From a virus, in IMG/VR virus record IMGVR_UViG_3300030107_005347, positions 1 through 29,539 of that record: 29,539 nucleotides of DNA. The stretch is one strand, 5' to 3'. A model generated the notes under the pieces. The model was given only the letters and a program-made list of their open reading frames with translations. It was not told the origin of the DNA and did no database searches. The translations under genes were made by a program, and so were the position numbers. Below are positions 11 through 15,624 of this stretch, in pieces (within the stretch, counting starts at the first letter, position 1; each line of letters starts with the position of its first letter).

Positions 11-1345
11 ATGAATGAAAATGGTGATGTGGAAATTTACTATGAACACGTTGACCCTAACAAGCCTGATTTATCTACCGAGAATTTCCAGAGCAGGGTT
101 ATAGTAGACCCTGAAGTAGCAGCACTTGCCACAGGTGATCTGAGTCTAGAAGATCCCCAAAGTGACGGATATAAAGATGCTACAACACATTTAGCTAAAG
201 CTGGGTTCCCGTCACCTGAAGAATTAAAAAAGAATGGCATTACATCGTTGAGGGTAATGAGGGATGCCAACCAGAACATAACAATAGAATTTAAAGACGA
301 AGATGGGCATACCATGACGGAATCTAAAGCCCATAAATTACGGAAAAGGACTGTTGAAACTGCCGAGGGAACTCTTCAGCTTAGTAAAGATAAGTTTAAG
401 AAAAAGACAGAACATTGGGAAACAGAGCATAAAGAAAATTTTGAGCAAAGGGCTAAGGAAAATGGATGGAAAGAGGAGAGGATCGAAAGGGAGGTTGCAT
501 CACACAATATAAGTCTGAAGCAACAACAGAAAAACTTAGATTCTGGTACTGATTACTTATCAAGGCAAGAGTTTATTGCTAAATATGGTGATACATTGCC
601 AGAAGATGTTGCTCAAGTTGAAATAGATAAGAATGGCACAATAAAAAAGATGCTCAAAGAGGACTGGACCGAAAGGAATGTCCCACTTAATGCTTTAGAC
701 ACACAGGTATTACAGGGTGAACTAGAAAATATATACACAACATATCCCGAAATATTCACAGCACAGAAAAAGGCTGGAATTAATTTATTAATGCAGGGGG
801 ACGACCCCATGCTGGCACTCAAAGAGGCACACAATGAATTAACTAGACAAGAGGTCTTAGCCCAGCCACCTGCCATGATAATGAAGATGTATAATGTTGA
901 TTTGGGTGTAATGGAATCAGCACAGGCAGCCTTAAATTTAATTAATGAAGAAGAAGAGGTAGCAAAGAAAACTGGCATCGTCTTAGGCCGGATTACAGAT
1001 AAGTTAAAACCTGCTGTTGTTCAGGCATTTTCTGCTCTAAAAACTGAGGCTGGCCTTATTAAACGTAACGAAATGATTGGTTCCCAGATGACTGATGGGG
1101 AGATTAAATTCTCGACCCCCTTCTTCCCTGATACCACTGACACAGTTAGTTCTGCAAAGGTAAAACTTCAAATACTTTTACGTGTTTCAAGGAACCGTGC
1201 CAACAGAATTAAATCAATGTTTTCAAAGAAAGCAGGATACAACGACCAGATTTGGGTTGATCCAAAATTTCAAGATGTAAAAGTGGATACTGAAGGGAAT
1301 ATTACTGAACCTCAAGCCTTAGATGCAACAACAATAGAAAATTAG
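11..1345 (+). CDS. Hypothetical protein, probable internal virion or ejection protein (5' end uncertain)
   Basis: I do not recognise a family for this 444-residue protein. It is hydrophilic and highly charged, with a long Lys/Glu-rich, probably coiled-coil region at about residues 95-180 and a second helical region at about 250-345. There is no signal peptide and no clear membrane segment. It ends three bases before the next gene, which looks like a DNA-ejection protein, so both probably belong to the end of a late structural operon. The first ATG is only ten bases inside the window, no stop precedes it in frame and no good ribosome site is visible, so the true start may lie further left. A virion role is inferred from position and composition only. 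Confidence 0.75.
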   Translation: MNENGDVEIYYEHVDPNKPDLSTENFQSRVIVDPEVAALATGDLSLEDPQSDGYKDATTHLAKAGFPSPEELKKNGITSLRVMRDANQNITIEFKDEDGHTMTESKAHKLRKRTVETAEGTLQLSKDKFKKKTEHWETEHKENFEQRAKENGWKEERIEREVASHNISLKQQQKNLDSGTDYLSRQEFIAKYGDTLPEDVAQVEIDKNGTIKKMLKEDWTERNVPLNALDTQVLQGELENIYTTYPEIFTAQKKAGINLLMQGDDPMLALKEAHNELTRQEVLAQPPAMIMKMYNVDLGVMESAQAALNLINEEEEVAKKTGIVLGRITDKLKPAVVQAFSALKTEAGLIKRNEMIGSQMTDGEIKFSTPFFPDTTDTVSSAKVKLQILLRVSRNRANRIKSMFSKKAGYNDQIWVDPKFQDVKVDTEGNITEPQALDATTIEN

Positions 1346-1347
1346 TA

Positions 1348-3495
1348 ATGGCTGAAACACTGAAAAATAGACTGCATAAAGACAGGAAAAAAATGAAGTA
1401 TACAACCCTGCCTGATATAACCAGAAGGGTTATTGAGGCAAGACAGGGTGGTACCTCAGAAGATGTTATCGAAGGGTTTCTCAAAAAACGTGGATATACT
1501 CCAGCATCTTTTGAAACGGCAGTAAATAACCAAACCAAGAAAGAAAATGAAAAAGGGGTAGGGGATGCAGATTGGAGTTTTTGGGATACTGTTACGGACG
1601 GGCTACAATACTTTAACAAAGCAACTGACAGTCTCATTACAGGAAGGACGTTTGGCCTTGCTATCCCAGCACGGGCAGTAGGAAGGTGGGCTGCTAAAAA
1701 TATGCCTTGGAGAGATGAATCCGAAGCAGAAACCTACTCTGAATCAGTTAAGGCCATCCAAGCTGAAGATAAAGAATTTGCTGACGAAAACCCAAATGTA
1801 GCAATGGGTACAGAGATGGTAGGAGCAATGGCAGCAGGTCCAGAGATAGTGGGAGGTTTAGTAAAAAAGGTGCCAGCACTAATGCCAGTGGCAGGACAAA
1901 CTGTAAGGAATGTAGGTAAAGGTGTGGCACTTCATGGTCCAGTTGGCATGGTAGAAGGCACAAGTCTGGCAGCAGCAAAAGATGAGAACCTCTACTTAGG
2001 AGCTGGTGCTGGAGGAATTGGTGGAGCATTAGGAGAATTAGCAATGCCTTTGCTGAAATGGGCCGTAAAAAAATTCACAACCCCAATAAAGAAAAAGCTA
2101 GGCAAACCTGTTGAAAAAGAACTTTCCTCAGCAGAAATAAAGGGTGAGCAGATGCTTGAAGAGGTTGATAAAAAGGATGGAGTTACATTGGTCCAGAAAG
2201 ATATGAGGTTACAAGAATATGAGGCCCTTGGGTTAGGTGATGAAGTTATGGAAGTTGATCTTCTAGGCAAGAAGGGTCAAGGTCTAGCAGGTACCATTAT
2301 GAGGAAGGGAGATAAGATCCCCGATGATGCTGAAACAAAACTGGTAGCACGTGCTGGCAAGGTCCGTCAGTATCTTTATGACTTTCTGCAAGAAGCTACA
2401 GGTGGCACCCGTATGTCCTTGAAACAGGCAGATGATGTATTCAGGAAAACTGCAAAGGAGGAATCAACCCCGGTTTATAATGAGGCATTTTATACTAAAG
2501 GAAAATTCAGGACAGTATCTGATACAGACTTGAATGCACTGTTTAAGATGCCAGAATTTAAAAAAGCATATAAAAGGGCACAGTATTTAGCAAAACATGA
2601 TACCCCCCCTGTAAAATTAGACCCCATGCCAAAAAACGGGTTCCCAGAAGGGCACGAGTTCCCGGTGTATGCCTTAGATAAAGTAAAGAAGGCACTCAGT
2701 TCAAAATTTGGGAAAGACTCCATTTTCCATCCAGATTCAAATGTCAAAGCACTTGCTGGGCAAATGACACAGCATAAAAATAATATGCTGGATATTATTG
2801 AAAAATATAATCCTGAATATAAACAGGCAAGGGACACCTATGCCGGTTATCTGGAATTAAAGGATGCCACCGAAATGGGTAAGAAGTTATTTGACAGTGA
2901 GGATGCCTTTGATAAATTCTATGAGCATTCAACAAAACTAAGGACAAATGGAGAAAGAGCAGAGTTCCGTAATGCTGCCTTTAATGTGCTTTCCAAAAAG
3001 ATAGAAAGCTCAAGTGTAAATCCTAAAGGCATGTCCACGTTTTTTACTAGCCCTCAAAACATGAAGAAGCTGGAACTTCTGATACCTGACCCTGAAAAAA
3101 GAGCAAAGTTCCTGAGACAGAATGAGTTGCTGTCAGGTTTTGTTGATGTGAAAAACAAGATCGTTGGAGGTTCCCCCACTGCTGAGAAGCTGGCAGCAGA
3201 TGCAGGAGAAGAAGAAATGAGTCAGGGAATCCGGGCAGTATCAAATATAGCAAACCGTAACCCGGCAGGGCTGGCACAGCAAGCAACCGATTTAGTTGCT
3301 GGCACACAACGTGGGGCTAGATTAGATGAAGCAGGTAAGAAGATGTACCAGCAAAAAACCCCTAATATACAAGCAGCCCATGAGGATAGCTTACTTACTA
3401 ATCAGGTGCTAAAAAGTAAAATGAGAAAGGGCCTTCTTGACCAAGGTGCCGGAGCTGCTGGTGGTGCCAGCTTGCTTAATTCACTGCTCCAGTGA
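1348..3495 (+). CDS. Probable internal virion / DNA-ejection protein
   Basis: This is a 715-residue protein with a charged N-terminus (1-75). A long Gly/Ala-rich hydrophobic stretch follows at about residues 150-240, with runs such as GTEMVGAMAAGPEIVGG and GAGAGGIGGALGELAM. The rest is a long helical, charged C-terminal region. Large virion proteins with a Gly/Ala-rich, membrane-prone segment are typical of podovirus ejection proteins, which leave the head and form a conduit across the cell envelope. No lytic transglycosylase motif was seen. It starts just after the stop of the preceding gene and ends by overlapping, tail to tail, the last gene of the minus-strand early operon by 15 bases; no terminator hairpin was seen there. 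The functional class is inference. Confidence 0.75.
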   Translation: MAETLKNRLHKDRKKMKYTTLPDITRRVIEARQGGTSEDVIEGFLKKRGYTPASFETAVNNQTKKENEKGVGDADWSFWDTVTDGLQYFNKATDSLITGRTFGLAIPARAVGRWAAKNMPWRDESEAETYSESVKAIQAEDKEFADENPNVAMGTEMVGAMAAGPEIVGGLVKKVPALMPVAGQTVRNVGKGVALHGPVGMVEGTSLAAAKDENLYLGAGAGGIGGALGELAMPLLKWAVKKFTTPIKKKLGKPVEKELSSAEIKGEQMLEEVDKKDGVTLVQKDMRLQEYEALGLGDEVMEVDLLGKKGQGLAGTIMRKGDKIPDDAETKLVARAGKVRQYLYDFLQEATGGTRMSLKQADDVFRKTAKEESTPVYNEAFYTKGKFRTVSDTDLNALFKMPEFKKAYKRAQYLAKHDTPPVKLDPMPKNGFPEGHEFPVYALDKVKKALSSKFGKDSIFHPDSNVKALAGQMTQHKNNMLDIIEKYNPEYKQARDTYAGYLELKDATEMGKKLFDSEDAFDKFYEHSTKLRTNGERAEFRNAAFNVLSKKIESSSVNPKGMSTFFTSPQNMKKLELLIPDPEKRAKFLRQNELLSGFVDVKNKIVGGSPTAEKLAADAGEEEMSQGIRAVSNIANRNPAGLAQQATDLVAGTQRGARLDEAGKKMYQQKTPNIQAAHEDSLLTNQVLKSKMRKGLLDQGAGAAGGASLLNSLLQ

Positions 3496-3904: not shown

Positions 3905-4486
3905 CTACTTAAATGGAGGTCCTGCAAACCATGCCACCAATGAATATCTGGTGCCAGCAGTTACAGGTTTTACACGGTGATGCAGATTAGATGGAAACAT
4001 TAAGATGGTACCTGTGGATTTTTCCACAGTCTCAGTTTTCAGTTTTCCTCTCTCAATATATGCTATCTCAAAATTTCCACCTTCGTAATCTTCGTTTAAT
4101 TGAATAGTCATTGATATTTTACGAACAGTGCCTTGATCGTCTGTGTTGTTATGTGACCCTTTGCCGTCTATATGGAACCCGTAGTGATCTCCTTTTTCGT
4201 ACTTGGTGATCTGGATACTCTCCCATCTTGTGACATTGTAGTTAAGCCCAGTGATCTCGTTATAGGCATCCATATATCTCCAGATTTTATCGACTACCCA
4301 TTTTTCGTCTGTCCAGAAAATCTTACTTTTCCTAGTTTTATCAGTTATCAGATTTTCTCTGGAGTCACCTTCAACTTTTGCATGGTCCCATTCCGTAGCA
4401 ACGTCAATAATTTTCTGGCAGGTGCCAGCATCAACTTCTCTTTTCAGCACCATTAAGTTGGTGTCGTTATTCAGACTGGCTTGCAT
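3905..4486 (-). CDS. 2-oxoglutarate/Fe(II)-dependent oxygenase (PKHD/P4H-like)
   Basis: The protein has 193 residues, and the double-stranded beta-helix signature is complete. Iron ligands are His105-x-Asp107 (in HYGFHIDGKG) and His170 (in SNLHHRVKPVTAG), and Arg180 (TRYSLVAW) is placed to bind 2-oxoglutarate. The sequence between them (ISMTIQLNEDYEGGNFEI) is characteristic of prolyl-4-hydroxylase/PiuC-like enzymes. Family members hydroxylate protein side chains or, in other branches, nucleobases; the substrate here cannot be read from the sequence. The start overlaps the end of the RuvC-like gene by 20 bases and the next gene begins one base after the stop, so it is translationally embedded in the operon. 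A second, divergent oxygenase lies at 16459-16968. Confidence 0.9.
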   Translation of the reverse strand: MQASLNNDTNLMVLKREVDAGTCQKIIDVATEWDHAKVEGDSRENLITDKTRKSKIFWTDEKWVVDKIWRYMDAYNEITGLNYNVTRWESIQITKYEKGDHYGFHIDGKGSHNNTDDQGTVRKISMTIQLNEDYEGGNFEIAYIERGKLKTETVEKSTGTILMFPSNLHHRVKPVTAGTRYSLVAWFAGPPFK

Positions 4487-11540: not shown

Positions 11541-11873
11541 TTATTTCCCGGCCTTTTCTTTGTGGTATGTTTCCCAATATTCGTTCTCGATATTGTCATT
11601 TTCCTGCCACTCAGGGGTCCCGTATTCAGGGACAGCACCAGTCTCATCAATTAACTCATCAAATTGATATGGCAGGACAGCCAGTTTATTTTTAATGGTG
11701 TGGGAATCTTCCATGATTATATCTGTAAGATTTTGCCTTAACTCCTCTTCAGTTTTCCCATCACCCATGCTTTCCATTAGCCAATCAATTCTCCTTTTAA
11801 ATACAGGGTTTTTCATTGTTGAAACTCTAATCCCCATTTTTTCGGCTAATGCTATTGTGTCTTTTCTATTCAT
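11541..11873 (-). CDS. Hypothetical 110-residue protein
   Basis: I do not recognise this protein. The N-terminal third looks helical and basic (NRKDTIALAEKMGIRVSTMK, then PVFKRRIDWLMESMGDG). The rest is strongly acidic, with a C-terminal DNIENEYWETYHKEKAGK tail. No cysteines, catalytic motifs or membrane segments are visible. It is the last gene of the minus-strand accessory block. It has its own copy of the repeated leader directly upstream, giving the GAGG ribosome site for this ATG. Confidence 0.7.
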   Translation of the reverse strand: MNRKDTIALAEKMGIRVSTMKNPVFKRRIDWLMESMGDGKTEEELRQNLTDIIMEDSHTIKNKLAVLPYQFDELIDETGAVPEYGTPEWQENDNIENEYWETYHKEKAGK

Positions 11874-11878
11874 TTTTT

Positions 11879-11900
11879 ACCTCATTTAATTAGTGTTAAA
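11879..11900 (-). promoter_or_regulatory. Repeated leader element, copy B
   Basis: TTTAACACTAAT then TAAATGAGGT on the minus strand, ending six bases before the ATG at 11873. It is nearly identical to the copies at 12931 and 14967. A GC-rich stem-loop lies just upstream (11916-11952). Confidence 0.6.
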
Positions 11901-11915
11901 AGATGGCAGAATTAC

Positions 11916-11952
11916 CATCATCGGGGGCACCCAAAATGCCCCCTGTGATGAT
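11916..11952 (-). other. GC-rich stem-loop after the 53-residue gene
   Basis: GGGGGCA (11923-11929) pairs perfectly with TGCCCCC (11937-11943), and ATCATC/GATGAT extends the stem outward. It begins at the stop codon of the 53-residue gene. No T-run follows on the minus strand, so it may act as an mRNA 3' end stabiliser or a weak terminator rather than a standard intrinsic terminator. Confidence 0.55.
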
Positions 11953-12113
11953 TACTCTTCTTGGTCGGATTCATTGTTTAATAACCATTCATTCATTCCT
12001 ATTTCAAATCCTATTGGATCACCTTGACGGAATAATATGCCATAATTAGGGGCATCATAAATACCCTCTAAATAATCCATGTATGCTGTTTCTTCTTTTG
12101 TAAAATAACTCAT
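11952..12113 (-). CDS. Hypothetical acidic 53-residue protein
   Basis: This short frame begins MSYFTKEETAYMDYLEGIYD and ends NNESDQEE. It is acidic and aromatic-rich, with no cysteines or membrane segment. The ATG at 12113 has an AAAGGGG ribosome site and follows the stop of the DUF6573-like gene by 12 bases, so the two are probably translated from one mRNA. A stem-loop sits at its stop codon. I know no family for it; the good ribosome site and placement support it being real. Confidence 0.65.
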   Translation of the reverse strand: MSYFTKEETAYMDYLEGIYDAPNYGILFRQGDPIGFEIGMNEWLLNNESDQEE

Positions 12114-12125
12114 ATTTACCCCTTT

Positions 12126-12599
12126 CTAATCTTCATTTGGTTGCATTATTGTTATAACTGGTTCGGCATTATCACCGGGGCCAATGTTAATTTTAAGAGT
12201 CGTTAGTTTTGCCCCTGTAAAATCATCAATTTCGGTAATAGTTTCGGCTTTTGTGTCTTTGGGTATTACATTTAATTGATATAATAAATCTTCGGACTGT
12301 TCCCGTGAAGATTTTATTTTCCAATGTGCCATAAAAAGCACATCCCACAGTCTGCCATCTATGCTTTGACCAAACCCCTGCTCTGATTCTTCGGGCCAGT
12401 CTATGCACTCTTCCCACACGGACCGGGTAACTGCCACCGGGAAAACAAACCCGGCTTCACGTGCCATCTCTGACACATCAACTAGCACCCCATCACTCAA
12501 AGCATCTGCTCTTGTGTAAATGCTGATTGGAGGACCGAAAAAATCTTCTATTGTTTTGGCTTTTTGAGTTTCGGCTTTTTCACTTTTGATATTTTCCAT
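12126..12599 (-). CDS. DUF6573-like phage/plasmid protein
   Basis: A 157-residue protein. The core (PPISIYTRADALSDGVLVDV, then SEMAREAGFVFPVAVTRSVW) matches, from memory, the DUF6573 family found on phages, plasmids and conjugative elements. The family's function is not known to me. I chose the ATG at 12599 because AAATGAGGTG lies just upstream; a longer frame from 12635 has no such site. The leader is a partial version of the repeated element, and an intrinsic terminator lies between it and the upstream gene. It forms part of an accessory block with the AAA+ ATPase. Confidence 0.75.
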   Translation of the reverse strand: MENIKSEKAETQKAKTIEDFFGPPISIYTRADALSDGVLVDVSEMAREAGFVFPVAVTRSVWEECIDWPEESEQGFGQSIDGRLWDVLFMAHWKIKSSREQSEDLLYQLNVIPKDTKAETITEIDDFTGAKLTTLKINIGPGDNAEPVITIMQPNED

Positions 12600-12666
12600 T
12601 TTCACCTCATTTGGTTTTGTTTGAATTTGGGCCATTTTTGGCCCGGATGCAGCACCATGCCAGCAT

Positions 12667-12692
12667 CAAAAGACCCCCATAAAACGGGGGCC
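12667..12692 (-). terminator. Intrinsic terminator after the PETSS-type gene
   Basis: On the minus strand CCCCC, a seven-base loop and GGGGG are followed by TCTTTT. The stem is at 12674-12678/12686-12690 and the T-rich run at 12668-12673. It lies 21 bases after the stop of the gene at 12713-12925 and before the DUF6573-like gene. Confidence 0.65.
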
Positions 12693-12712
12693 TTAAGCTG
12701 ATAACTTGTTAC

Positions 12713-12925
12713 TTAATAACTGTCAAAACCGTCAAACCAAGGGCCACAAGTTTTAGTACGTTGTTTCCCTGTTGACGTTGTGCATGTTTTGCTGGACGTT
12801 TCAGGGTCTTGACAGTGGTTCATTGCCTGTTGTTTAGTCAGGCCCTTTTTAATGGTTCTGGACGGTATATTGTCATTAAAGTATTGTCTTATAATCTTAT
12901 ACCTTTTTTTGTTACTTCCGAACAT
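12713..12925 (-). CDS. Conserved small phage protein (PETSS family)
   Basis: A 70-residue basic protein: KRYKIIRQYFNDNIPSRTIK, then KGLTKQQAMNHCQDPETSSK and a C-terminal GPWFDGFDSY. I recognise the pattern sRTI-x-x-GLT-x-x-x-A-x-x-HC-x-DPETSS...GPWFDG as a small protein family of unknown function that recurs in phages of diverse hosts. It contains three cysteines but no clear zinc motif. It has its own leader copy (12931-12952) and is flanked by two terminator hairpins, so it is probably a single-gene transcription unit. Confidence 0.75.
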   Translation of the reverse strand: MFGSNKKRYKIIRQYFNDNIPSRTIKKGLTKQQAMNHCQDPETSSKTCTTSTGKQRTKTCGPWFDGFDSY

Positions 12926-12930
12926 TTAGC

Positions 12931-12952
12931 ACCTCATTTTATTAGTGTTAAA
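12931..12952 (-). promoter_or_regulatory. Repeated leader element, copy D
   Basis: TTTAACACTAAT then AAAATGAGGT on the minus strand, five bases before the ATG at 12925. It is preceded by a terminator hairpin (12958-12982). Confidence 0.6.
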
Positions 12953-12957
12953 TTGTC

Positions 12958-12982
12958 TTTAAAACGGCCCTAGTGGAGCCGT
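12958..12982 (-). terminator. Intrinsic terminator after the VWA-like gene
   Basis: On the minus strand ACGGC (12978-12982), a nine-base loop and GCCGT (12964-12968) are followed by TTTTAAAG. It lies downstream of the gene at 13040-13846. Part of it (12964-12978) is nearly repeated at 13024-13038 as ACGGCCCTGATGGAG. Confidence 0.55.
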
Positions 12983-12986
12983 AGTA

Positions 12987-13001
12987 TTTACACTATGTAA
13001 A
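12987..13001. promoter_or_regulatory. Operator-like palindrome TTTACA-CTA-TGTAAA
   Basis: A perfect inverted repeat with 6-bp arms lies in the 114-bp gap between the VWA-like gene and the PETSS-type gene. It is close to two copies of an ACGGCCCT...TGGAG repeat and is distinct from the palindrome at 9888-9902. A regulator-binding role is inferred. Confidence 0.4.
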
Positions 13002-13039
13002 CACTAACAGGACCATATTATATACGGCCCTGATGGAGT

Positions 13040-13846
13040 TTACTTAGTTATTTTCTGAAATAAATCATCTATTTCGTTTTCATCAAATGTAATAGAATTA
13101 ATATCAATAAATTTGCCAGTTTTTGCATGTTCAGGTAGCCAATCAGCATTCCCATAAGCATGCTTAGTCATACAAGGATTAAACATTTCAGTAAGTCTAA
13201 AACCGAACCGTCTTAGCATACTTGGATGAGCCATAATAAAAGCAAGTCTATCTAATTCTATATGGTCTTGATAATCTTTTATCGTTACTTCGAAATATTC
13301 TTTATTTAATTTTTTCCCAGCTTTTTTATTAGAGCTGGAATAAGCCACAAGTTTTACTCTATACCCATTATTTTCTAGATTATCAATATTAGATAAAATT
13401 CTGGCACCACGTTTTATAATTTGTGTCGGTTTTTTCTTATAAGAATAAGAATAAGAATAAAAGACCTTAACAAATTTTTGACCGTCTTGCTTTATATAAT
13501 CATAGCTAATCATGTTTTCAGGGTCATTAGATAAAAACCTATCAATGCTTGGTTCATCACCTGAAACATCAAAAACCTGATTTATTAGAGGTGCCTGAGC
13601 CTGTTCTATATTATCTAATTCTTTTTTCATTTTCTTGACCCCTTCAGGAAAGCCATTTTCTAGAATTTCGAGTGCATGTTCGAAACTATCGGACCCGGTC
13701 CATTTAGGGTCCTTATACTGTGAAGCCTTTTCATATATTCCAGCTTCACAGTCTTTTAAAAACTTTTTGCTTAAAGGGGTTTTTGCAGTTTCGATAAACT
13801 CATCAAAACTAAAGTATTTTTTAATATCTGCATTTTTTATAGTCAT
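13040..13846 (-). CDS. VWA-like partner of the AAA+ ATPase (DUF7192-like)
   Basis: A 268-residue protein. The C-terminal half resembles a von Willebrand A-like fold as found in MoxR partners: RGARILSNIDNLENNGYRVK, then LVAYSSSNKK, then LDRLAFIMAHPSMLRRFGFR. The metal-binding DxSxS motif is missing. The N-terminal third (FDEFIETAKTPLS, WTGSDSFEHALEILENGFPE) matches, from memory, a phage family called DUF7192. The gene overlaps the ATPase gene by four bases, as expected for a functional pair, and has an AAGGGG ribosome site. A YSYSYSY run is encoded by a hexanucleotide repeat near 13437-13460. Assignment rests on pattern and partner. Confidence 0.65.
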   Translation of the reverse strand: MTIKNADIKKYFSFDEFIETAKTPLSKKFLKDCEAGIYEKASQYKDPKWTGSDSFEHALEILENGFPEGVKKMKKELDNIEQAQAPLINQVFDVSGDEPSIDRFLSNDPENMISYDYIKQDGQKFVKVFYSYSYSYKKKPTQIIKRGARILSNIDNLENNGYRVKLVAYSSSNKKAGKKLNKEYFEVTIKDYQDHIELDRLAFIMAHPSMLRRFGFRLTEMFNPCMTKHAYGNADWLPEHAKTGKFIDINSITFDENEIDDLFQKITK

Positions 13847-14961
13847 TCGGACCCCTTCAGCTTATTGATTGTTGATTTATCAAGACCCTTGTATATAAGA
13901 CCATGTAATATATCCTTTTCGGTCATTCCAGCTTTTAAAAGCCTAACCGCATAAATTGAATCACGAGGTGAAACAGTCACTCGCATGTTATGCCTTGAAG
14001 CATTTTCTCGAAGGTCTTGGATTGTATCAATTAAGGCATTTGATTTATCACAGTCAGCACCTGAAATGCTTCTTTCGAGGTTGCCGTCATAACCCCATTC
14101 AACTGTGAAAAATCTTTTTAGTGTTGCTTCATCTAATTGGCACCTGCCAACATACTGCCTATCGGCCCCGGTGCCATAAGTGTTAGCACCTGCAATGCAA
14201 ATAAAATCTGCATGCTTTTCTATCATGCCTTCAGGTGTTGCCATTACACCGTTGCTTAATACCATATTTAATATGGTTAAAACTCCGGGGTTACCTGAAT
14301 CAATTTCATCTATCATAAAAACCCCCCCATTTTTAACACATCTAATTAAACCAGTTTCATGATACTTTCCATTAGCATCTATAAAACCGATTAAGTCAGA
14401 CTTGCTTGTCATAGGACCAACACTAATTGCCTCATAATGTAAGCCTAAACCTTTTGCAAGCTGTTCTGCTCCATAAGTTTTGCCAGAACCACTAGGCCCA
14501 GCTAAAAAAACTGGTATTCTTTGAGATGCTACTAAAAGCATTTCTTGGAATTTATGGTGCTGGGCACCTACGTTTATTTCTGGCTTTTCAAGGGGTTTTA
14601 CTATTACTTCAACGGCAGGGTTTGAGTGCTGTTTGATTAATTCAACTATTCTTGCCTCATCCATGCCAGCATTGTTATTAATGCCGTTTAGAAATGGCTG
14701 CAAGGCCCCTGCTAGATTAGATACATGGTCTAGGGTAGCACCGTTGTTATTATTTAATGCTGGTATAGTTTCAACAGCTTTAACGGGGTCCTGCTTTACT
14801 CCATTATTATTAGCAGGTATTTCTTGACCATTTAACCATGCTAAAAGCTGGTCTTTATTGGCTCCAGAAATTGCCACTCCTGATGCTGGGGGATTGTCCA
14901 AGTTTCGGCAATGTTTTCTTAATTCCGAAACTGTCATATTATTTAGGGTATTGTGTTCCAT
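13843..14961 (-). CDS. MoxR/CobS-type AAA+ ATPase with SAP-like N-terminus
   Basis: A 372-residue protein. Residues about 9-45 (MTVSELRKHCRNL...KDQLLAWLNG) look like a SAP-type nucleic-acid-binding motif, followed by an Asn-rich linker. The AAA+ core has Walker A GPSGSGKT at about 155-162, Walker B VFMIDEID at about 214-221, a sensor-1 Asn in CIAGANTYGTG and an LDEATLKRF arginine-finger segment. This pattern is typical of MoxR, GvpN and CobS proteins, which remodel partners together with a VWA-domain protein. The downstream overlapping gene fits as that partner. It has the best-spaced copy of the repeated leader, and two hairpins lie further upstream. The substrate is unknown. Confidence 0.88.
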   Translation of the reverse strand: MEHNTLNNMTVSELRKHCRNLDNPPASGVAISGANKDQLLAWLNGQEIPANNNGVKQDPVKAVETIPALNNNNGATLDHVSNLAGALQPFLNGINNNAGMDEARIVELIKQHSNPAVEVIVKPLEKPEINVGAQHHKFQEMLLVASQRIPVFLAGPSGSGKTYGAEQLAKGLGLHYEAISVGPMTSKSDLIGFIDANGKYHETGLIRCVKNGGVFMIDEIDSGNPGVLTILNMVLSNGVMATPEGMIEKHADFICIAGANTYGTGADRQYVGRCQLDEATLKRFFTVEWGYDGNLERSISGADCDKSNALIDTIQDLRENASRHNMRVTVSPRDSIYAVRLLKAGMTEKDILHGLIYKGLDKSTINKLKGSE

Positions 14962-15030: not shown

Positions 15031-15386
15031 ACATATTTATACGTTAAAAAAAGCATAATGTATACAAAAAAATGCAAAAAGTTTAATTATTTTAACATGA
15101 CCCCAGCAAACCCTTGCAAATGCTACAAATAAAAATTCACTCAAACCATAAAAAAAAGACCAAAAACTAGCAAAAAAAGAAAAAAACTGAACAGGTCCAA
15201 AAAATGCCTAGTAAAACAGGGTAATATTTACCCCTGAAAATGACCCTGAAAACGGGTCAAATATTAAGTAATATATATAAGAGTTTATATATATACATAG
15301 TATATAAATATAAACGTCTTTATATATTACTAAAGAAATGGACCAAAAAAACGGCCCCGGTTCCGGGTCAAATTATCGGTGCTAAA

Positions 15387-15624
15387 TGCTGGCATAATTT
15401 AACGGGGTTTCGGTTCGGTGTTTTATGCTGGCAAATTGTTTGAGGTGTTACGGTGCTGGCATTTAATATGCTGGCAGGGTTTTGACTAGCCAGAGTGCTT
15501 GCCGTGTTCTTCACGTGCACGTGTAGCATGCTAGATACTGGCATATACTAGAATTATACACTAGATAAGCTGGCATAACCCCTGTAAACCGTTGGTAATG
15601 CTGGGATTACGGCAAATGCTGGCC
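15387..15624 (+). repeat. TGCTGGCA octamer array
   Basis: Four exact copies of TGCTGGCA begin at 15387, 15426, 15454 and 15469. Four one-mismatch copies begin at 15536, 15568, 15599 and 15617. All eight are in the same orientation within 238 bp, with irregular spacing (15 to 67 bp). Flanks are often A/T-rich, as in AATGCTGGCATAA. Two of the weaker copies sit in a longer direct repeat, CTAGATA...CTGGCATA. The octamer has TGC/GCA ends, a possible short dyad. Confidence 0.7.
15512..15533. repeat. Two abutting perfect palindromes
   Basis: CACGTGCACGTG (15512-15523) is directly followed by TAGCATGCTA (15524-15533). Both are perfect palindromes without spacer, located inside the octamer array. They look like protein-binding sites or a recombination or cleavage site; no function is assigned. 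Confidence 0.5.

Follow-up and report, generated by a model that had tools for sequence, protein, structure and literature searches.

The window analysed in this study is a viral DNA stretch of 29,539 nucleotides, positions 1 to 29,539 of the record IMGVR_UViG_3300030107_005347. Its region of interest (11541-14961) harbors a series of open reading frames; the positions and strands given for the named frames in a preceding sequence-only reading, all of them on the minus strand, were confirmed throughout. The first gene in the direction of transcription (13843..14961) encodes a MoxR-type AAA+ ATPase of 372 residues, the first 45 of which (14827..14961) constitute a SAP-like N-terminal domain of DNA-binding type. 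It overlaps by four bases with the gene of a 268-residue partner protein (13040..13846), which is assigned to the Pfam family DUF7192 (PF23822) and to phrog_1909 and includes a candidate pore-inserting finger (residues 86-118; 13493..13591). Directly 3' of the partner's stop codon, a minus-strand hairpin with an 11-bp stem (13008..13032; -25.3 kcal/mol, z = -6.7 relative to shuffles) may serve as the terminator of this pair. The genes beyond it are neighbors outside the conserved pair: the small protein PETSS (70 residues; 12713..12925), for which no family match was found, a DUF6573 protein (169 residues; 12126..12635) and an unassigned 110-residue frame (11541..11873), which has no family match above threshold and no homolog among the fetched loci. 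A further frame of 53 residues (11952-12113) was absent from the earlier description.

The ATPase and its DUF7192 partner form a strict two-gene unit. In an alignment-based scan of viral contigs, 80 loci were selected by their ATPase alone, and 77 of them encode a DUF7192 protein on the ATPase's strand, downstream in 73 cases and with a gap of at most 20 bases in 54. The remaining three are L018, where DUF7192 is found on the full contig, and two contigs that end 0 and 113 bases past the ATPase; for the two families, this co-occurrence is far above chance. Locus L098, with an ATPase and no partner, was considered as a counterexample and discarded: only 494 bases separate the ATPase from the start of its contig, and in the related loci L071, L092 and L093 the partner is located upstream. 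As the 65 aligned ATPases fall into 61 clusters at 90% identity and 31 at 50%, the pair is not one lineage. Likewise, DUF7192 is present in all ten isolated phages fetched by their ATPase (Tunturi_4, K, Bestia, Aegeus, Octobien14, P100, LP-114, PT11-V19, Whirlwind and Halena). The reverse test was run on annotated phages, because the partner alignments are too divergent for a reverse scan (a lone partner query matched only itself), and it found the ATPase in 5/5 isolated-phage records fetched by DUF7192. Viral-contig scans with a single ATPase or partner protein yielded nothing, and a genome scan yielded three clear relatives only, its other matches being other AAA proteins. Lastly, a mirror-tree comparison of ATPase and partner (r = 0.65; 0/500 permutations) is consistent with co-inheritance, but is not proof of contact.

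The identification of the first protein as an AAA+ ATPase is certain, given its matches to AAA_5 (E = 5e-17, above the cut-off) and phrog_249 (E = 7e-57). Its SAP-like N-terminus is followed by a low-confidence linker (about residues 46-75), a helical stretch and the AAA+ module (about 128-371). The Walker A residue K161, the Walker B residues D218 and E219, and N260, R283 and R333 are invariant in 65/65 aligned ATPases; judged by these motifs, both Walker motifs, both sensors (1 and 2) and the arginine finger of a MoxR-type AAA+ core are intact in the protein. The nearest folds to its AlphaFold model (pLDDT 88) are NorQ (Z 21.8) and CbbQ2 (6l1q; Z 21.6), with E = 2e-15 and Z scores 4-5 units above those of the dynein matches. 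The model also features a NorQ/CbbQ-like hairpin insert in helix 2, formed by a short strand pair (193-194/200-201). On the sequence level, the family profile finds CobS as the nearest solved single-module ATPases (E = 6e-20). The SAP-like end is weak in the window protein itself, whose N-terminal 45 residues alone score 18.1 bits against Pfam SAP (E = 0.002; gathering cut-off 23.9), but it gains support from relatives, as PF02037 matches the N-termini of 11 out of 14 (E up to 1; best 6e-6). Within this region, the model has confident helices at residues 11-19, 28-33 and 36-43. Since such N-termini are found in only 14 of the 65 ATPases, with different or zinc-ribbon-like ends in the others, DNA tethering would not be a general property.

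The partner passes the DUF7192 cut-off of 27 bits with a score of 118.9 (E = 3e-34; phrog_1909, E = 7e-32) and comprises a helical N-terminus, the candidate finger and a VWA-like fold with a degenerate MIDAS (about residues 124-268). While a search of solved structures with the partner's sequence profile found no relative, a Foldseek search with its AlphaFold model (pLDDT 88.4, pTM 0.83) returned NorD VWA in the top four rows (probability 0.99-1.00, E = 1e-4). In a comparison with the NorD VWA domain, the model reaches a VIA Z of 8.1 over 182 residues, a moderate match with low TM-scores (0.24), and the MIDAS domains of Rea1 come next; we thus predict a VWA (integrin I-like) fold with moderate confidence. 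The MIDAS motif DxSxS is intact in 0/66 family members, and the partner's first description as a VWA-like protein without metal-binding motif is supported in both respects. Conservation within the family peaks in a 20-residue stretch that begins at residue 93, before the first VWA strand, which is the position expected for a finger. The surrounding residues 86-118 follow the family pattern DVxGxxxDVxRxLxGxPExM and adopt a strand-helix-strand arrangement in the model. By analogy, they may be equivalent at the residue level to the finger of NorD, which spans residues 403-448 (PMC13036017). DUF7192 was found in one of 398 Bacillota genomes and is therefore essentially viral there.

The proposed analogy to MoxR/VWA or CobS/CobT-like machines is borne out by the predicted structures, as ATPase and partner, searched separately, each retrieve one of the two chains of the solved NorQ-NorD complex, and the pair very probably represents a remodelling machine of the MoxR AAA+/VWA type. 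NorQ and NorD, a MoxR AAA+ protein and its VWA partner, mediate iron insertion into nitric oxide reductase. They resemble the phage proteins in ATPase fold, with 22% identity over the AAA+ module, in being encoded by a gene pair, in the VWA domain and in the comparable conserved stretch preceding it. By contrast, the phage partner is much smaller (268 residues versus about 70 kDa) and has lost the MIDAS, on which NorD depends for its target, while the phage ATPase has an additional SAP-like domain. No nitric oxide reductase was found among the annotated genes around the pair in isolated phages, and the searched genes of the window are phage genes. CbbQ/CbbO, a rubisco activase, shares the ATPase fold and the MoxR/VWA principle, but differs in partner architecture and target, and no link to rubisco was seen.

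Related pairs are also known from other mobile elements. The cobST genes of cyanophages, haloarchaeal tailed viruses and phage-plasmids (PMC8651126) form a two-gene viral cluster with an ATPase related in sequence, as judged by the CobS match of the family profile and by phrog_249. However, the partner is encoded upstream in both S-PM2 and a Klebsiella phage-plasmid, where it has 740 or 670 residues and no DUF7192; the 670-residue Klebsiella protein retains an intact DMSGSM site. A plasmid AAA-DUF3150-VWA module combines a related ATPase with a VWA protein two genes downstream and, in a Vibrio plasmid, a nearby gene of the lambda exonuclease family, but it consists of three genes, has no DUF7192, and its VWA protein is recognized by Pfam VWA models. 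Jumbo phages and an Acidianus virus encode a MoxR protein with a vWA partner (PMC7824862); by its description, the jumbo-phage system is set apart by the fusion of vWA to a metallopeptidase and a proposed role in virion assembly. The suggestion of an undescribed system must therefore be narrowed, since phage cobST and MoxR-vWA pairs have been published. A literature search found no paper mentioning DUF7192, and its role as a metal-site-less partner in phage MoxR/VWA pairs appears to be undescribed.

In the window, and in its relatives where such genes are recognized, all virion and packaging genes near the pair lie on the opposite strand. This gene position suggests that the pair is expressed early; its genes are not named in the main texts of the kayvirus and Listeria phage transcriptome papers. 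The set of replication genes nearby is variable, with no strict linkage to the pair. We envisage that the ATPase would assemble into a hexameric ring, on which one DUF7192 protein would dock by inserting its conserved finger into the pore. By hydrolysing ATP, the ring would then twist or pull this adaptor and thereby remodel a target held on the adaptor's remaining surfaces. With the loss of the metal site required by NorD for its target, the adaptor would have to bind elsewhere, possibly through the conserved HPSMLRR region or its helical N-terminus. In this phage group, the SAP-like domain would keep the machine on DNA. Given this domain and the early-type gene position, the likeliest target would be a phage or host complex that is associated with DNA early in infection, e.g. 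a replication or recombination complex. Overall, we lean slightly towards a compact, early, DNA-tethered phage MoxR/VWA machine acting on a DNA-associated complex as the best explanation. Taken singly, early and DNA-associated action falls just below an even chance, and a replication or recombination target is a rather doubtful specification.

The sequence-only reading had assigned PETSS and the DUF6573 protein to the same system, in the belief that four families travel together. Although the DUF6573 identity was confirmed (PF20213, E = 6e-24), only the ATPase and DUF7192 do so. Among the fetched loci, DUF6573 accompanies the pair only in near relatives (L189, L016, L017 and L194), and among viral contigs, PETSS does so only in the nearest, L189; PETSS is also found in Tunturi_3, without DUF7192 in its record and without the ATPase in the stretch read. 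A joint four-gene function could draw on the fact that the window and L189 both have all four genes in order on a single strand, and on DUF6573 following the pair in L016, L017 and L194. Yet the arrangement is missing from nearly all other pair-bearing loci; this survey and the hairpin after the partner gene set the pair apart from the small downstream genes, making a four-gene system extremely improbable. Scarcely more credible is a cobaltochelatase that raises host vitamin B12. It is invoked by the published cobST hypothesis (PMC8651126), by the label 'porphyrin biosynthesis' of phrog_249 and by the proximity of CobS in sequence. However, the ATPase reaches 17 bits against the CobS equivalog TIGR01650 (cut-off 558.55), and DUF7192 lacks the MIDAS of CobT. 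Furthermore, hhalign found no link between the partner and the cyanophage CobT-position protein or a plasmid VWA protein, a weak test with single sequences and little power. CobN had no match in one pair-carrying MAG, which may be incomplete.

A role as virion assembly chaperone has its precedents in the jumbo-phage proposal and the Acidianus two-tailed virus (PMC7824862). However, wherever terminase, portal and tail genes were recognized, in the window as in its relatives, they are encoded on the other strand; the pair is therefore probably outside the late operon, so that we consider this role unlikely. Somewhat better placed, but still improbable, is an anti-defence or host-takeover machine, in which motor and adaptor would disassemble a host complex on DNA, such as a defence system, the nucleoid or a repair complex. 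The early-type location, the viral restriction of DUF7192, the SAP-like tether and the occurrence in phages of very different hosts would suit it, as would the adjoining small genes without known function, here and in actinobacterial phages. Nevertheless, a near-universal partner across many hosts suits a core function at least equally well, and neither protein could be linked by sequence to known anti-defence proteins. A PADLOC search for defence proteins gave weak, generic P-loop matches for the ATPase (best E = 3e-4, over the P-loop only) and none for the partner.

Returning to the remodelling machine, a bolder reading, with less than even odds, is that DUF7192 pairs represent an undescribed and widespread class of early phage AAA+ systems. 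These would combine a MoxR ring, a metal-site-less VWA adaptor and exchangeable, often DNA-binding-type N-terminal domains, and might remodel DNA-bound phage or host complexes at the start of infection. Hundreds of sequenced phages carry the pair, including Staphylococcus kayviruses, Listeria phage P100 and mycobacteriophages, annotated as 'AAA ATPase' or 'porphyrin biosynthesis' next to a 'hypothetical protein'. Once the second gene is recognized as a dedicated adaptor of VWA type, two unconnected annotations merge into a single machine that can be tested, and the vitamin B12 reading is weakened for the DUF7192 branch. As the pair is present in tractable laboratory phages, it offers a route to asking what phage MoxR motors do.

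The four minus-strand genes that a sequence-only reading had grouped as a possible phage system exist and were correctly placed. They encode a 372-aa AAA_5/MoxR-type ATPase (13843-14961), an overlapping 268-aa partner that belongs to Pfam DUF7192 (13040-13846), a PETSS small protein (12713-12925), for which a family search returned no match, and a DUF6573 protein (12126-12635), whose assignment the search confirmed. The early-type region of this 29.5-kb virus record runs leftward and includes a nuclease, an SSB, a replication initiator and an integrase, while the packaging and structural genes run rightward from 15818.

Several further features were observed in the window. Eight TGCCAGCAT-like repeats in one orientation fall within 240 bases between the ATPase and small terminase genes (15386-15624, minus strand) and resemble iterons or operators; the 9-mer is enriched across the whole window (50 occurrences versus 9 expected, allowing at most one mismatch). 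A 2OG-Fe(II) oxygenase gene (3905-4486, minus strand) adjoins a Holliday junction resolvase gene, and an endonuclease V-like phage gene (16459-16968, plus strand; phrog_274, 6e-43) separates the small terminase gene from the large one. Two large rightward ORFs, one of 444 aa and one of 715 aa (phrog_5880), lie at the left end (11-3495, plus strand); they are probably late genes, which suggests that the point at which the record was cut falls among the late genes.

Co-occurrence beyond chance, as proposed for all four families, holds for the ATPase and DUF7192 only. When viral loci were selected by ATPase alignment alone and all their ORFs were then searched with the partner profile, DUF7192 was found on the strand of the ATPase in 77 of 80 loci (73 downstream, 4 upstream), and the sequences are diverse, falling into 31 clusters at 50% identity. 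In the other three, 53, 0 and 113 bases remain past the ATPase, and the full contig of the first does carry DUF7192. The same holds for isolated phages of Staphylococcus, Listeria, Mycobacterium, Gordonia, Acinetobacter, Alteromonas and Tunturiibacter selected by the ATPase (10/10) and, in reverse, for isolated-phage records selected by DUF7192 (5/5). Among 398 Bacillota genomes, DUF7192 occurs in one, on which the sample was centred.

The arrangement of the pair varies. In L071, L092 and L093, a group with DUF7192 upstream, the gene starts are about 0.9 kb apart, and L092 has a UvsX-like recombinase gene nearby. In two Rhizobium phages, two small ORFs separate the genes, and the DUF7192 proteins (L185, 3581-4726; L186, 3548-4726) exceed the usual length by about 110 residues. 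Some mycobacteriophages carry a second DUF7192 gene, in Chaser (L188, 5953-6816) 1.7 kb from the pair, and many related records have two such places.

By contrast, co-occurrence of DUF6573 with the pair is limited to close relatives of the window phage; that of PETSS is limited to L189, the nearest one, which has the integrase in common as well. L195 has a more distant DUF6573 with no pair within 8 kb. Given also a very stable hairpin directly 3' of the partner gene (13008-13032, minus strand), the block is no more than normal synteny within a single phage group, built around a far more widespread pair.

Both proteins gave confident AlphaFold models (pLDDT 88 each). The best solved matches of the ATPase model were NorQ and CbbQ, and that of the partner was the VWA domain of NorD; separate searches thus recovered both halves of a single experimental complex. 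No other evidence speaks more strongly for the pair working as a MoxR/VWA machine, although the partner match itself is moderate. All ATPase motifs are invariant. The partner does lack the metal-binding motif, as had been noted: DxSxS is intact in 0 of 66 DUF7192 members, with N or S the most frequent replacements of its D. Since the NorD site is required for target activation but dispensable for ATPase binding (PMC9976466), a partner lacking it would be expected to hold its target by other means and to keep the motor interaction. The partner is best conserved at residues 93-112, ahead of its first VWA strand; from chain order and predicted strand-helix-strand, this stretch may correspond to the NorD finger (residues 403-448), whose deletion abolished iron insertion (PMC13036017).

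In the accessible text of earlier reports, phage cobST clusters are linked to vitamin B12 (PMC8651126) and jumbo-phage MoxR-vWA pairs to virion assembly (PMC7824862); DUF7192 is not described there, and a literature search found no paper naming it. The present pair shares their principle, but its adaptor is different and compact. A virion-assembly role, as proposed for the jumbo-phage pairs, is made less likely by gene position: in the window, its relatives and the two Rhizobium phages, every recognized terminase, portal, head or tail gene near the pair lies on the opposite strand, which argues against a late operon. A three-gene counterpart is found on a Vibrio gangliei plasmid (L013, 3845-8837), where a related ATPase is followed by DUF3150 and a VWA protein, with a lambda-exonuclease-family gene next in line.

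A SAP-like start is common to 14 of 65 ATPases, 11 of which match the SAP model, while the remaining N-termini are zinc-ribbon-like or unrelated. Against a constant motor and adaptor, the ATPase thus has an exchangeable N-terminus, suggestive of a role in targeting. We propose, as the most likely mechanism, that a MoxR ring and a single DUF7192 adaptor would use ATP to remodel a target early in infection, at best guess a DNA-associated phage or host complex, and that in this phage group the SAP-like domain would keep the machine near DNA.
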